Shown here one piece after another: positions 13,818-34,424 of a DNA stretch of 64,000 bases. The position numbers were made by a program, and so were the translations under genes. The stretch's first letter is position 1, and the number at the start of each line of letters is the position of its first letter. Source of the DNA: Candidatus Zixiibacteriota bacterium. Its GTDB lineage: Bacteria > Zixibacteria > MSB-5A5 > WJJR01. Under the pieces are notes generated by a model that searched no databases, was not told the origin of the DNA, and worked only from the letters and a program-made list of their open reading frames with translations. Location: positions 62,001-126,000 of the forward strand of contig DASWIS010000025.1 of NCBI GenBank assembly GCA_036397555.1, in the 5' to 3' direction.

Positions 13818-13827
13818 ATCGCTGTGA

Positions 13828-27930: not shown

Positions 27931-28725
27931 ATGTCTAATCCCGGCACAGCCATGAAGCTACTAAGTCGTTTATTACCAATGTATTACGTGCAGGTTGCGG
28001 TTGCCTTTGTGATGCTCTCCATACCCACAGTCGGTCTTGGGCTTGGATCGAGCGTCCCCACCTCGCCCTCAGACCCTGGGCCCCGACTTCGCGCAAGTGT
28101 CGAGAGTTTCGACTTTGGATATGCCCCTCAACTGGCGCATCTCTCCCACGCATTCTGGATCAAGAACATTGGCACTGAAGTGGCTACGATTCAACGAATT
28201 AAACCAAACTGCGGCTGCACTCGTGCACCGTTGACAGACAGCATCATAGCACCCGGCGATAGTACCTCGATCGAAGTCATATTGGGGACTGGAAAGATGA
28301 TCGGCGAAGTCGAAAAGTACGCCCGCTTGTATACCGATGCGATCGGGCGTGTGCCGGCGCTGATCATCAAATCTCATGTGCTGGCCGATGGTACGCAGCC
28401 GCCGAATCTCGTTGCTGAGCCGGAGGGTGTATTTGTCGACTCGACGGCTCGTCCTGAGGCGGATGGAGAGCGCTGGGAAATCCCGGTGGCGCTGAAGAAC
28501 AGCGGAACAGAGAACATGAGGATCACCGCCATTGATGTGCCGTCGCGGTACGTATTCTTATCCGAATCGGAGTTTACGCTTGGTCCTGGGCAGAGCCGCA
28601 CAATCATGTTCCGTGTCGACCCCGCGATTCTGACTCTGGAGCATGGACGGTCGGTCACGTTCGCCGCCCACGGGAAAGACGAGATGCGTCTGACCGTGCC
28701 CGTCGGAGAGCGCCCGGCCCATTAG
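27931..28725 (+). CDS. DUF1573 exported protein, copy 1
   Basis: 264 residues from ATG 27931; an internal ATG at 27952 (MKLLSRLL) gives a cleaner signal peptide and may be the true start. A hydrophobic export signal (VQVAVAFVMLSIPTVGL) is followed by the DUF1573 immunoglobulin-like domain: SFDFGYAPQLAHLSHAFWIKNIG, then the Cys motif KPNCGCTRAPL, then IAPGDSTSIEV. The second half is another beta-sandwich-like domain. DUF1573 proteins are secreted or periplasmic, with unknown biochemical role. Copy 1 is the most divergent of four tandem paralogues: it has Asn before CGC where the others have Gly, and it lacks their C-terminal RWGP motif. Confidence 0.82.
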   Translation: MSNPGTAMKLLSRLLPMYYVQVAVAFVMLSIPTVGLGLGSSVPTSPSDPGPRLRASVESFDFGYAPQLAHLSHAFWIKNIGTEVATIQRIKPNCGCTRAPLTDSIIAPGDSTSIEVILGTGKMIGEVEKYARLYTDAIGRVPALIIKSHVLADGTQPPNLVAEPEGVFVDSTARPEADGERWEIPVALKNSGTENMRITAIDVPSRYVFLSESEFTLGPGQSRTIMFRVDPAILTLEHGRSVTFAAHGKDEMRLTVPVGERPAH

Positions 28726-28794: not shown

Positions 28795-29556
28795 ATGTCA
28801 CAGAGCAATCCCATGTCACATTTCGTGATCCCGGCGCTGGTGTCAGCGGCGATGCTGTCGGCGCCCAATGCCTTCGCCGGAAAAGCCGAAATCATGGTCC
28901 CGGAGGAGTCATTCGATTTCGGCTACACGCCACAGGACGCCAAGGTTACACACGTCTTCTGGATCAAGAACACCGGCGATGACACGCTCTTCATTCAGGA
29001 TGTCAAGCCGGGCTGCGGCTGCACAAAGGCGCCGCTAAAAAAGACGGAACTGGCATCATTGGACAGCACCGATGTCGAGGTGATCTTCTCGACCGGCCAC
29101 TACAGCACTCGGACGACAAAGTCGGCTCGCATCCTCAGCAACGCCGGCAACGTGGCGCCGACTCTGATGATCATGTCGCATCCGATGAAGGACCTCGACT
29201 CGCTTGAACTGTTCTCGTTGGATCCTCCACGGCTGAACCTGGACGAATCACGGTCGGCGGACGGCGACGGCCCGATGAAGTTCGATGTCAGGATCAACAA
29301 CAAGTCGTCGGAGCCATACGCCCTCAAGCTCGTGTCCTTTCCGGCGATGCCGGAGTTAAAGATCGAACTGCCCAGCGGTGCGATCAGTCCCGGCAGCGAG
29401 GAGACCATTTCGATTACGCTCGATGGCTCGTTGAGCTCGGAAATCTTTACCAAATCGTTTACGTTTGAGGCCACCGACGCCCTGCAGACCCGCTACACCT
29501 TCCCGATCGAGAAAAAGATGCGGTGGGGGCCGACGCCGGTGTCGTCCTCGCGGTGA
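28795..29556 (+). CDS. DUF1573 exported protein, copy 2
   Basis: 253 residues. The ATG at 28795 has an AAGGAGAG ribosome-binding site and opens a signal peptide (FVIPALVSAAMLSAPNAFA). Conserved body: ESFDFGYTPQDAKVTHVFWIKNTGDDTLFIQDVKPGCGCTKAPL in order, then STGHYSTRTTKSARI, a second beta domain, IFTKSFTFEATD, and a C-terminal EKKMRWGPTP. The Cys-Gly-Cys pair is intact here, which makes this copy the best guide for the UGA-containing copy 4. Function unknown. Confidence 0.87.
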   Translation: MSQSNPMSHFVIPALVSAAMLSAPNAFAGKAEIMVPEESFDFGYTPQDAKVTHVFWIKNTGDDTLFIQDVKPGCGCTKAPLKKTELASLDSTDVEVIFSTGHYSTRTTKSARILSNAGNVAPTLMIMSHPMKDLDSLELFSLDPPRLNLDESRSADGDGPMKFDVRINNKSSEPYALKLVSFPAMPELKIELPSGAISPGSEETISITLDGSLSSEIFTKSFTFEATDALQTRYTFPIEKKMRWGPTPVSSSR

Positions 29557-29629: not shown

Positions 29630-30424
29630 ATGTCGTCGGTGCACACCGTGTTGCGCGCAATCCGGGTTGCCCTGTACACAGCGGTTGCCGGCACGGTCGC
29701 ATTGGCCATACCGGCAACGGCGGATGACCCTGAAGAAGTGACCGCCACGACATATGGGAAGTTGGAGTTGAGCGAAACAGACTACGACTTCGGGTACATG
29801 CAGCAGCGGGTGCAGGTGTCGCACCGCTACTGGATGAAGAATGTCGGCGGACAGGAGGTGCGAATCGAGGATGTCCAGCCCGGCTGCGGCTGCACCAGGG
29901 CGCCGCTGCAAAAGAAGAATATCCCGGCCGGGGACAGCTCATTCGTCGATCTGATCTTTGCATCCGGGCACTTTGACGGCCACGTACACAAATCGGCACG
30001 CGTCATCTGCAATGTTCCGGGGCGCGCGCCGGAGCTGTTTTTCGATGCCTATCCGCTGAAGTTCCCCGATACACTGGGCGTGTATACCGTCTCACCGGCC
30101 GAGTTGCAACTCGATGAGCTCCGTGCCGACGACGACACCGCGGTGTGGAATCAGACGATCAGAGTGAAGAATGTCTCCTCTGAGACACTCCGCTTTCGGT
30201 TCGCGCAGGACCCGGACATTTCGGGAGTCCGTGTGACGCTGCCGAGGCGGGGGATCGCCCCCGGAGAGGTGGCCGCGATTCGAGTCGCGCTCGAGGGAGA
30301 CATCGCGGAACAGATTCTCACCAAGTCGTTTACGATCGAGGCCTCGGACTCCGCCCGAACGCGATTCACCGTCGCCGTCAGAAAGCCGCTGCGATGGGGC
30401 CCTCTGCCGCGGGCGGACCATTGA
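29630..30424 (+). CDS. DUF1573 exported protein, copy 3
   Basis: 264 residues from ATG 29630 (a GTG lies one codon earlier; no strong ribosome-binding site). Signal peptide RVALYTAVAGTVALAIPATA, then DYDFGYMQQRVQVSHRYWMKNVG, intact Cys motif QPGCGCTRAPL, KSARVICN, a second beta domain, ILTKSFTIEASD, and a C-terminal RKPLRWGPLP. It lies 73 bases after copy 2 on the same strand. The much longer open frame upstream overlaps copy 2 and is not coding. Confidence 0.85.
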   Translation: MSSVHTVLRAIRVALYTAVAGTVALAIPATADDPEEVTATTYGKLELSETDYDFGYMQQRVQVSHRYWMKNVGGQEVRIEDVQPGCGCTRAPLQKKNIPAGDSSFVDLIFASGHFDGHVHKSARVICNVPGRAPELFFDAYPLKFPDTLGVYTVSPAELQLDELRADDDTAVWNQTIRVKNVSSETLRFRFAQDPDISGVRVTLPRRGIAPGEVAAIRVALEGDIAEQILTKSFTIEASDSARTRFTVAVRKPLRWGPLPRADH

Positions 30425-30499: not shown

Positions 30500-31270
30500 A
30501 TGAGAATTCGCTCTCCGTACGCCTTCACCTTGACTGTGTCCGTGGCCATTGCTGCCGCTGCACTGGCGCAGGACGGAAAACCCCTGGAGGGGCTCGACGG
30601 GCCGGTTTTGGAGTTGCGCGAGTCGTCGTTCGACTTCGGGTATACTCCCCAGGGAGCGCAGATCTCGCACGCATTCTGGATGATGAACACCGGGACCGAC
30701 ACGCTGCTGCTGCGCGACATAAAACCCGGGTGAGGATGCACAAAGGCTCCTCTGACAAAACGGGAGCTGGCTGTCGGTGACAGCACATTCGTCGAGTTGA
30801 TTTTTTCAACCGGGCACTACACGAACCGGACAAACAAGAGCGCGCGGATCATGTCCAACTCGGTCATTGACCCGCCGCGCCTGGGCATCCAGGCGTTTCC
30901 GCTGTCGATTCCGGAGTCGTTGCAGGTCTTTGCGGTGATGCCTCCTGTGCTCGATCTGGATTCCACCCATATCGATTCTCCGAGGTCACATGGTGACTAC
31001 GAAGTGGTCGTGCGAAACCGATCCGAAGAGAGATTCTCACTTCAACTGGTGAGCCCGGTCGTACTGGAAGGGATCGAAATCGATGTTCCTTCGGGCGACA
31101 TCGCTCCGGGAAAAGAAAAAAAGATCAAGGTCAAGATCAGCCCGGAGCTGGATGAGAAGCTGTTCACGAAGTCGTTTACGATCGAGGCCTCCGATACGGC
31201 AAACACCCGGTACACAGTGCCGATCGTCAAAAAGATGCGCTGGGGTCCCGAACCGCCCCCGTCGAATTGA
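30500..31270 (+). CDS. DUF1573 protein copy 4 with in-frame UGA at the conserved Cys (probable selenoprotein)
   Basis: 256 residues if the UGA at 30731-30733 (codon 78) is read as selenocysteine. Start ATG 30500 has GGAAGGAAG upstream and a signal peptide (AFTLTVSVAIAAAALA). Before the UGA: SFDFGYTPQGAQISHAFWMMNTG and IKPG. After it, in the same frame and without any other stop: GCTKAPLTKRELAVGDST, STGHYTNRTNKSARIMSN, a second beta domain, LFTKSFTIEASD and KKMRWGPEP. The neighbours have Cys exactly at this position (KPGCGCTKAPL), so the motif becomes U-G-C. Ordinary gene callers would split it into two fragments (ending 30733 and beginning near 30797). The alternative is a pseudogene with one nonsense mutation, but everything else is intact. 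Confidence 0.8.
30731..30733 (+). other. In-frame UGA, probable selenocysteine codon
   Basis: Replaces the first Cys of the Cys-Gly-Cys motif conserved in the three tandem paralogues. The second Cys (TGC at 30737-30739) is kept, giving a possible selenenylsulfide pair. Confidence 0.75.
30734..30784 (+). promoter_or_regulatory. SECIS-like hairpins downstream of the UGA
   Basis: Two candidate stem-loops. The first pairs GCTCC(T)C with GGGAGC (30746-30752 and 30762-30767), with a 9-base loop starting TG about 20 bases after the UGA. That lies within the spacing and loop-G pattern described for bacterial SECIS elements. The second is a perfect GCTGTC-GGT-GACAGC hairpin (30770-30784) with its loop 42 bases after the UGA. 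Which one, if either, binds SelB is not decidable by eye. Confidence 0.5.
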
Positions 31271-31321: not shown

Positions 31322-31578
31322 GTGGAATCGATTCAGGTGCGAGCCAAGTCTGACTCGCGCTGAAACTTGCGCGCCGTGCCGTTGTCAGGGTGCAGCTTGG
31401 CGGCCGGCAGACGCAGAGACGGCGGCGTTGAGCCCGAGCAGCAAGAAGATGTCATCGGAGCGGCATTGGGGACGGAGACGGTCGAGCGCTTCGGTTTCTC
31501 GGCGCTTCCTGTCGTTGTCGATTCTCGTTAGACCGGGGAACGAGATGATGTGAGGAGTGAGATGTTAATCGGTCGCTG
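31322..31578. other. Intergenic stretch without recognised features
   Basis: About 257 bases between the DUF1573 terminator and the 3' end of the GWxTD gene on the opposite strand. I see no RNA gene, repeat or promoter in it; open frames here have no family features. Confidence 0.5.
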
Positions 31579-33030
31579 TCAGCGGGTCGGTCCCTCAAAG
31601 GCGCCGATTTGGAGTTGATACTCCCAGTTGGGATCGCGCCGTTCTCCGCGCGCGCTGGAATGAACGAGGCGATAGTCCCCGAATCCGGCCTCATCGAGGA
31701 ACAGAAAGTCCGCGCTGCCCTGATTGGGAATGTTGTCGTAGACCCAATGGATCGCCGCCGGAAAGTCGGGTGTGAACGGGTACCGCTTAATCTCCGTGGG
31801 CGGTCCATACACGATGTAGACGCGTCCGCGGTCGGTCCGCCAGCCATCGCTGCGCTCGCGAAACCCGATTGAAAACTGATCATTGGCGTAGTTCATCCGT
31901 CGCATGTGCTCATCGCGGTACTCATTGATGGGAGTATCGGGCGACGGGTCGCGTTCACGCCAAAACTGAATCAAAAAGCTCAGTTTGCCGCGCGCATCGA
32001 ACTGATCGAAGGCAGTCAGCTCACCGGGACGCGCAATAAACGCGATAATGTCACGAACCCGTTCGACCTCCTCGACCGTGAGGGAGTCGGTCATGGGCCG
32101 CAAGACCTGAAACGGTTTCTCCACGACAGCGTGCTGAGCGGTCGCCGGATCACTGACCTCAAGCCGCAGGCGATAGACGCCGGAACTGAGGTCATCGACG
32201 GTGACATGCGATGCGAGCACTGTCGATGGGCCGGGTTTCTTGAGATGTTGCACACCCAGACTTCGCGCCGGAGTACCATCGGTCGGCACAATGGAAAAAC
32301 CGACCGTGTAGTCCGCCGCGCTTGTCGGTGAATACGAGAGATTGTACGATTCGCAATAGAAGTACAGTTGGGTGCGCGATTCACTGACCAGCCCCCGGCA
32401 ATCGGGATACGTCTTGTACCCGTTCTTGACCAGCACATCGTACAGATTGGCCGCCGTGTCCGCGGCGAGCTGAATGTCGTAGCCGAGCTGGATCTCCGAG
32501 AGCATCAGCGTGTCCCCGCTGAAATCGGGGACAATGACGGGGTAGGTCGCCTTCGACGACGAGGAATCGGCCAAATCCGTCACGTCGACCTGCGCCGAGT
32601 AACGCCCCGGCGGCAGATCGATGGCCATCGCGAAAAAGAGCGTATAGTCGGCATCGGCCAGATCGGATGAGTCGGTTGCCATGGCGGCGAATACGGCCGC
32701 CGCCGAATCGACCGCCCGGCCCTCACGGTCGGTGATTCGGACGCGCGTGGCGACATCGGCGCGCAGGCCGGATTGGGTCGGCCGGAACACGAACGTCGAG
32801 CGCTTGATTTCGAAGTAAAACTCGACATAGCCGTCGCGCGACTCGTCGGACATACGAAACACCGCCGCATCCGTCCAAAACTGATGCGCACCGGGGCCAT
32901 CGACCGCGGCAGCGATGGCGGGCAACAACAGCACAGTCAGCGCACAGAACCACCCGGCACAGCACGAGTTCATGCGCAATGCGTCGGGCTTCGCCGGCGC
33001 CGGCAACCGGCTTCGTGAGCAGGTCTTCAT
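31579..33030 (-). CDS. GWxTD-domain exported protein, copy 1
   Basis: 483 residues. Signal peptide (CALTVLLLPAIAAAVDG) after a short N-terminal tail, several beta-rich segments, and a C-terminal GWxTD domain: FWRERDPSPDTPINEYRDEH, then the name motif in SDGWRTDRGRVYIVYGPPTEI near residue 410, then a final strand region with FLFLDEAGFGDYRLVHSS. GWxTD proteins are widespread in Bacteroidota, Acidobacteriota and relatives; the biochemical role is unknown. Its ATG overlaps the stop of the second GWxTD gene by 4 bases, so the two are translated together, perhaps as partners. Confidence 0.88.
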   Translation of the reverse strand: MKTCSRSRLPAPAKPDALRMNSCCAGWFCALTVLLLPAIAAAVDGPGAHQFWTDAAVFRMSDESRDGYVEFYFEIKRSTFVFRPTQSGLRADVATRVRITDREGRAVDSAAAVFAAMATDSSDLADADYTLFFAMAIDLPPGRYSAQVDVTDLADSSSSKATYPVIVPDFSGDTLMLSEIQLGYDIQLAADTAANLYDVLVKNGYKTYPDCRGLVSESRTQLYFYCESYNLSYSPTSAADYTVGFSIVPTDGTPARSLGVQHLKKPGPSTVLASHVTVDDLSSGVYRLRLEVSDPATAQHAVVEKPFQVLRPMTDSLTVEEVERVRDIIAFIARPGELTAFDQFDARGKLSFLIQFWRERDPSPDTPINEYRDEHMRRMNYANDQFSIGFRERSDGWRTDRGRVYIVYGPPTEIKRYPFTPDFPAAIHWVYDNIPNQGSADFLFLDEAGFGDYRLVHSSARGERRDPNWEYQLQIGAFEGPTR

Positions 33031-34424
33031 CGGTGATATCCGTCGTAAGGATACTGCAGTTCATAATCGCCGTTTCCCCGCACATCGACAAAGAGAAACT
33101 GACGGTTTTGCTGGTAATAGTTCCAAATCTGGTACGGCTTCTGCCCGCTCTCGAACGGAAAGCGCTCGATTTCATCGGGTTCGCCGTAACGGACATAGAC
33201 GGTCCCGAAGTCGGTCCGCCACCCGCGGCGAAACGGCGTGGTAAAGCGCAAATCGGAAAACCGTATCCGACGATAGTACTCCTGCTGCCACTCGTTCTCG
33301 TCGGTCTCCGGCGTCGGATCCTTCAACTTCCAGAACGCGCGAAAGAGCCGTTCGCGTTCCGATTCAGATGCGTTGCGCAGACTGTCTAGCTGGTCGTGCG
33401 AGGCGATATGAACCAGCATGTCGACCGCCTCCTCCCAACTATCGTGAACCAGCGCCCCGACGGTCCAATCGATCCAAAAGAAACTTTCCAGTGACGCGCC
33501 GAGCTGCTGACCCTCTCGATTCAGGGTGGCGGCCCTCATCCGCACTTCTCCGGTTCGGAGACCGGCGAGATCGCTTTTGTAGACGATCGTATCGGTCATC
33601 CTCAGCGAATCCAGTCGCAGTGTGTCTTTGTGCGAGTCGCGATTCCCCTTTTGATCGATGGTAATCTCGACAGCGACAGCGGCCGCAGAAGGCGACTGAT
33701 AGACCTCCATGAAAAAGGCGACACGGTCGGACATACCGGCGAACGATCGCCGGACATTGGGGACATACGATTGCCCGCCGCGCGCAAACGCCGGGTATTC
33801 GGGGGCCCGTGCGGCCGGATCGAAGTAGGCCGGCCCCCCAAACCTCCAGTCGGATGCGGCGAAGTGTCGTACGTCGACGTCGCGTTCCGTCGAGTGCGAC
33901 GCGCCGGATATGCGGTCGGTCAGTGTCGTGGTCAGCAGGTAGTTTCCGGGCACGACCGTCATCGATAACACGTTGACGAGATATCCCTCGTTGCTGCGCG
34001 TCTCATCGAATGTCTCCAGGCGGTAGTTCTCTCGTTTCATAGTGCTGGCAACCTGACGGTCGCTCTCACCCGACAGCAGTGCCGCCATCTCGTAGGCCGC
34101 GACATAGTAGTCCGAGGGAGACTCGTCCGCCGTGTCCGAGGCCACGGATTGTGACGAATCCTGCCCGTCGGCTGTGCGACGCAGATAGGAGAGCCGGTGG
34201 TTGACAATCCGATAGTAAACCTCGATGCGCACGCTGTCGGCGCCGACCCGGAAGGGCGCAAAATCCAGATCGAAAGTCGGCGTTCCCGGACGTGGCAACC
34301 CGGAGAACTCGGCCTGCCCATGAGCACAGATCGGGGCTGTGAGGATCACAGCCGCGCAGATTACCCACCGGATGAAGAGAAATTCCCTGCTGATTGCGCC
34401 TTGGATCACCTCTTGCCCCTTCAA
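33027..34424 (-). CDS. GWxTD-domain exported protein, copy 2
   Basis: 465 residues with an N-terminal export signal (WVICAAVILTAPICAHGQA), beta-rich middle region, and C-terminal GWxTD domain: FWKLKDPTPETDENEWQQEYYRRI, GWRTDFGTVYVRYGEPDEIERFPF, and LFVDVRGNGDYELQYPYDGY. Same architecture as the downstream paralogue but only distantly similar in the middle. It lies 90 bases after the MacB-like permease gene on the same strand, so it appears to be the penultimate gene of an efflux-type operon. Confidence 0.88.
   Translation of the reverse strand: MKGQEVIQGAISREFLFIRWVICAAVILTAPICAHGQAEFSGLPRPGTPTFDLDFAPFRVGADSVRIEVYYRIVNHRLSYLRRTADGQDSSQSVASDTADESPSDYYVAAYEMAALLSGESDRQVASTMKRENYRLETFDETRSNEGYLVNVLSMTVVPGNYLLTTTLTDRISGASHSTERDVDVRHFAASDWRFGGPAYFDPAARAPEYPAFARGGQSYVPNVRRSFAGMSDRVAFFMEVYQSPSAAAVAVEITIDQKGNRDSHKDTLRLDSLRMTDTIVYKSDLAGLRTGEVRMRAATLNREGQQLGASLESFFWIDWTVGALVHDSWEEAVDMLVHIASHDQLDSLRNASESERERLFRAFWKLKDPTPETDENEWQQEYYRRIRFSDLRFTTPFRRGWRTDFGTVYVRYGEPDEIERFPFESGQKPYQIWNYYQQNRQFLFVDVRGNGDYELQYPYDGYHR

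Follow-up and report, generated by a model that had tools for sequence, protein, structure and literature searches.

The window that we analysed, a stretch of 64,000 nucleotides from a Candidatus Zixiibacteriota bacterium, carries a DUF1573 gene with an internal UGA codon, preceded by three tandem DUF1573 paralogues that have cysteine (Cys) where that UGA stands. The features referred to below are these:

27931..28725, plus strand: DUF1573 Cys paralogue 1, with NCGCT (profile match)
28795..29556, plus strand: DUF1573 Cys paralogue 2, with GCGCT; in the tree it lies closest to the Sec copy, without starred support
29630..30424, plus strand: DUF1573 Cys paralogue 3, with GCGCT (profile match)
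30500..31270, plus strand: DUF1573 gene read as a selenoprotein gene, 256 aa, with selenocysteine (Sec) as residue 78; natural stop TGA at 31268-31270
30500..30571, plus strand: N-terminal hydrophobic segment, residues about 1-24, a probable signal peptide judging from the sequence and an AlphaFold helix at residues 7-26
30731..30733, plus strand: UGA codon read as Sec, where the paralogues have the leading Cys of CGC; aligned in all UGA copies
30734..30739, plus strand: Gly-Cys, the remainder of the U-G-C motif; unchanged throughout an alignment of 42 proteins
30745..30768, plus strand: hairpin 1, GGCUCC...GGGAGCU, the putative spacer within the SECIS
30770..30784, plus strand: hairpin 2, GCUGUC-GGU-GACAGC, to which SelB is proposed to bind; its loop follows the UGA by 42 nt

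Apart from the in-frame TGA at codon 78, the DUF1573 gene is intact. The sequence-only reading had claimed that the UGA replaces the first Cys of a Cys-Gly-Cys motif kept by the three neighbours and that the frame runs on with similarity to its natural end, and both claims hold: the three tandem upstream genes have Cys at that position, and the match to PF07610 (DUF1573; residues 38-132, E 1.3e-22, 80.1 bits against a gathering cut-off of 26.1) spans the UGA, around which the frame reads PG-U-GCTKAPL and stays open up to its stop. The profile search also matched the protein to a HYDIN/VesB-like Ig domain. Two consecutive genes for GWxTD-domain proteins lie on the minus strand at 31579-34424, convergent to the DUF1573 array. 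A mechanical scan of the window for other in-frame TGA codons with a G-loop hairpin returned candidates at 13825 and 19220, the translations of which are non-protein-like frames, and a third at 31335.

The genome that the window comes from (2.63 Mb in 35 contigs, rated 100% complete) has the machinery for inserting Sec. The tRNA-Sec gene selC scores 66.9 bits, over the Rfam cut-off, with the anticodon tca assigned by ARAGORN, and is directly followed by selA (458.6 bits) and selB (306 bits). With selD also found, all four genes that the sequence-only reading had proposed to look for are present. This selD has an in-frame TGA of its own and is itself a selenoprotein gene (locus L018, minus strand, TGA at about 2400-2398); its SECIS consists of one hairpin, GGUCC-GGU-GGACC, the loop of which follows the UGA by 17 nt. 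Across the class, the selD signals have stems of 5-8 bp and, at a distance of either 17 or 20 nt, a loop starting with G that is in most cases a G[GU]N triloop. Several genomes of class relatives have, in addition, a second selD domain without TGA within an open frame of 559-902 aa (loci L198-L215, L217 and L220), probably a selD fusion; some of these occur beside a Sec-containing selD.

Homologues with exactly one internal TGA occur throughout the class, as a search of 195 genomes revealed, and in all UGA copies the TGA falls in the same aligned column, mostly within PGUGCTKAPL and in an intact frame. Within the class, 13 families have UGA-containing DUF1573 genes, in more than 85 genomes altogether, the records being mostly titled Candidatus Zixiibacteriota; the count comprises 87 genomes from the homologue search and reading of the loci, plus seven more located with an RNA model. 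The sequence-only reading had suggested a search for such aligned UGA genes in relatives, and it has thus been borne out well beyond the one genome. A search for related loci among genome contigs with a single protein found nothing, and a pattern for the UGA motif succeeded: run in strict form on the DNA of 84,980 species, a collection that may omit records very near the window genome, it gave 79 stretches, again mostly with Candidatus Zixiibacteriota titles, of which 77 were confirmed as UGA DUF1573 genes. One of the others was too truncated for confirmation, and a match in Halovibrio (L142) had no DUF1573 match and is attributed to chance. A few of the stretches are titled Calditrichota or Ignavibacterium, labels of which we are unsure. 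A covariance model, R1, run over 58 genomes, had its strong matches at DUF1573 genes wherever we checked, which was for a subset of the matches.

Because selC, selA, selB and selD are all present and the UGA column is conserved across the class, we consider it very probable, from the sequence evidence, that the UGA at 30731 is read as Sec and that the gene is a genuine selenoprotein gene, as the sequence-only reading had proposed. A base error could not be excluded from one assembly alone, but more than 85 genomes share the aligned UGA and keep an intact frame beyond it, which, together with a complete Sec machinery in the genome, leaves a pseudogene or a one-base assembly error with hardly any probability. 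Only slightly more credit is due to a general reassignment of UGA under another genetic code, or to plain readthrough that inserts another amino acid. Either would let the frame go on beyond the UGA, but tRNA-Sec and selB are present and the internal UGA is found only at the redox Cys column; furthermore, TGA serves as the normal stop of the gene itself and of paralogues 2 and 3, and UGA is therefore not generally reassigned.

The SECIS-like hairpins that the sequence-only reading had seen downstream of the UGA are indeed two in number. Taken alone, the window sequence has an unremarkable folding energy (z -1.46; 16 of 200 shuffles fold at least as well), and it is because the relatives share the aligned UGA column and near-invariant synonymous sites in hairpin 2 that we regard the hairpins as more than chance. 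We compared 106 distinct post-UGA sequences in a gapless alignment, in which position 0 is the T of TGA. Hairpin 2, at +39 to +53, reads GCTGTC-GGN-GACAGC and is near-invariant, with a stem of 6 bp, GG in the loop of 105 of the 106 and a third loop base that varies freely. Its third codon positions are 94-99% constant in the Sec genes, compared with 34-84% in 38 Cys paralogues, and in one family the sequence is GCTATC-GGT-GATAGC, the G-C pair having been replaced in a compensatory manner by A-U, with Val becoming Ile. Two UGA DUF1573 copies, L095 and L118, are without hairpin 2 and may have either a different SECIS or a decayed one.

Hairpin 1, at +12 to +38, is conserved in another manner, its exact pairs, register, length and loop drifting between families. 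Its mean energy of -9.63 kcal/mol compares with -6.43 kcal/mol in synonymous column shuffles (z -14.5, reached by 0 of 200), and the same test on this region of the Cys paralogues gives no signal (z 0.2). As the shuffle breaks phylogenetic relatedness, its z is not a probability, and the argument for hairpin 1 rests instead on the Cys control and on compensatory changes. At the pair 17-34, the alignment holds 54 UA, 14 GU, 12 AU and 8 GC; these counts and the shuffle test are unbiased, whereas one other set of pair counts came from 40 sequences picked for pairing and is biased. RNAalifold, applied to the selected alignment, favoured a small structure built solely from codon-constrained invariant bases, which we do not count as evidence. 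All in all, there is little doubt in our minds that the two-hairpin element is conserved as RNA, and a joint account of Sec decoding and such an element, which asks marginally more, is by a wide margin the best explanation of the data.

The geometry of the element is unusual. The bacterial SECIS model places the apical loop 16-37 nt from the UGA (PMC13188914). Hairpin 2 resembles that consensus in its small GG loop, its 6 bp stem and its place inside the coding region, and it shares with the selD signals of the class a stem with a G[GU]N triloop. In contrast to the consensus, however, its loop is 42 nt from the UGA in the window gene, a hairpin with its loop at that distance is found in 100 of the 106 sequences, outside the published range, and a selected hairpin is inserted in between; and while the selD signals are single hairpins at 17-20 nt whose stem sequence varies, the DUF1573 signal consists of two. 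When the span of hairpin 1 is subtracted, the effective spacing becomes 16 nt in 49 genes and 16-20 nt in 80 of the 106, and in the window gene it is 18 nt, against 17 nt in the genome's own selD. As these values are near the 17-20 nt of the class selD signals, we propose that hairpin 1 acts as a spacer. UGA 30731 would be decoded by SelB and Sec-tRNA-Sec under the direction of a tandem SECIS in which hairpin 2 (GCUGUC-GGN-GACAGC) binds SelB, and hairpin 1, by folding out about 24-26 nt, would bring hairpin 2 to the usual effective distance. On balance, we favour this division of labour, with hairpin 2 as the SelB site and hairpin 1 as the spacer.

A rival reading would make hairpin 1 an ordinary SelB-binding SECIS and leave hairpin 2 as an accessory, for instance a pause-inducing or refolding element. 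The loop of hairpin 1, 16-23 nt after the UGA, is within the published range, a loosely conforming hairpin is found in 73 of the 106 sequences, and in 85 of them there is a G among the two leading bases of the loop; G[GU], on the other hand, is seen in only 29 of the 106, compared with the near-constant GG of hairpin 2 that matches the selD triloops, and register, length and loop of hairpin 1 drift among families. We give this reading perhaps one chance in a few. Alternatively, the whole could be a single composite SECIS, in which the bases at 4-11 after the UGA pair with those at 45-53 and the resulting basal helix has hairpin 1 within it. Many relatives show such a helix in their minimum-energy fold, and most of its pairs are invariant; the invariant pairs fall, however, in codons that the protein motif fixes, two of the eight are broken in 35-55% of the sequences, the full set of eight is formed by only 31 of the 106, and the helix is absent from the fold predicted for the window sequence, making the composite structure an unlikely one. 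Returning to the spacer arrangement, we lean, if only slightly, towards its representing a SECIS class of its own among bacteria, defined by a dedicated, selected hairpin that folds out about 25 nt of coding sequence and so lets a remote SelB-binding hairpin work from the normal distance. Hairpin 2 overlaps the conserved Gly-Asp-Ser codons. If true, the arrangement would allow Sec to be encoded where the protein sequence adjoining the UGA cannot hold a SelB hairpin.

Mapped on a protein tree (102 Sec, 36 Cys), the Sec/Cys label has to change 18 times, with no fewer than 13 of these changes forced by starred branches, and several Cys copies nest inside Sec clades. Two Cys copies, L039 and L044, have TGC for TGA and have kept a recoding-like hairpin 2, and are apparently recent Sec-to-Cys conversions with a fossil SECIS. 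The Cys set was gathered near the Sec loci, and a tree sampled in this way suggests the ancestral state rather than proving it.

As for the protein, AlphaFold (with 42 aligned sequences; pLDDT 91.7) predicts an N-terminal helix followed by two Ig-like domains and places Sec78 in the loop following strand 69-76. The residues invariant in the 42 proteins include 78-81, 83-85, H57, D94 and S95. Foldseek hits were to cilia central-apparatus proteins, SPD-2 domains of CEP192 and the Porphyromonas protein 2qsv of unknown function, all with low whole-length TM-scores. We read it as a DUF1573 protein of HYDIN-like Ig fold that has a Sec-Gly-Cys motif and is predicted to be exported. The redox chemistry of U-G-C motifs is part of general selenoprotein knowledge, and as Sec here replaces a Cys of a two-residue thiol motif, we find a redox role reasonably likely: outside the cytoplasm, the U-G-C pair would probably serve as a thiol-disulfide redox centre that alternates between its selenenylsulfide and selenol/thiol forms. 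Among the 78 loci whose neighbourhood we examined, 57 have a Cys DUF1573 copy and 45 a GWxTD protein downstream, and no redox partner was recognised.

The sequence-only reading had called the gene a probable new selenoprotein, and this part of its interpretation has to be given up: Sec decoding stands and export stands as a prediction, but the kind of protein is known. DUF1573, under the name OS_HP2, has been in selenoprotein tables with its UGC since 2007-2008, being listed as DUF1573 with a UGC motif and credited to Zhang & Gladyshev 2007 (PMC9312934, PMC13188914) and as OS_HP2, pfam07610, with UxC (PMC2398784); as tabulated, it has the same Pfam domain and the same U-x-C (UGC) motif as the window protein. 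NCBIfam has a model for the 'OS_HP2 family (seleno)protein', NF041425, which is matched by all 42 aligned members (best E 2.8e-25), the window protein itself scoring 69.2 bits, below the curated cut-off of 100. The earlier DUF1573/OS_HP2 records are scattered, whereas here the gene is class-wide in Zixibacteria and in tandem with Cys copies; this phylogenetic breadth and the two-hairpin geometry had been passed over by the sequence-only reading. In a literature search that covered few subscription papers, we found no mention of a DUF1573 selenoprotein in Zixibacteria or of a two-hairpin bacterial SECIS. We conclude that a known kind of protein is here found on a new branch, and that the SECIS variant is probably new.

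According to a review (PMC13188914), the single-hairpin SECIS model does not fit certain bacterial selenoprotein genes, an indication of distinct SECIS classes, and the present family offers a deeply sampled and testable candidate for one. On the practical side, gene finders will truncate or split such UGA-containing proteins. For the family itself, our analyses turn what had been scattered records of DUF1573 selenoproteins into a trait of a whole class, and its tandem genes provide a natural series of Sec/Cys swaps, some of them with apparently leftover recoding hairpins.
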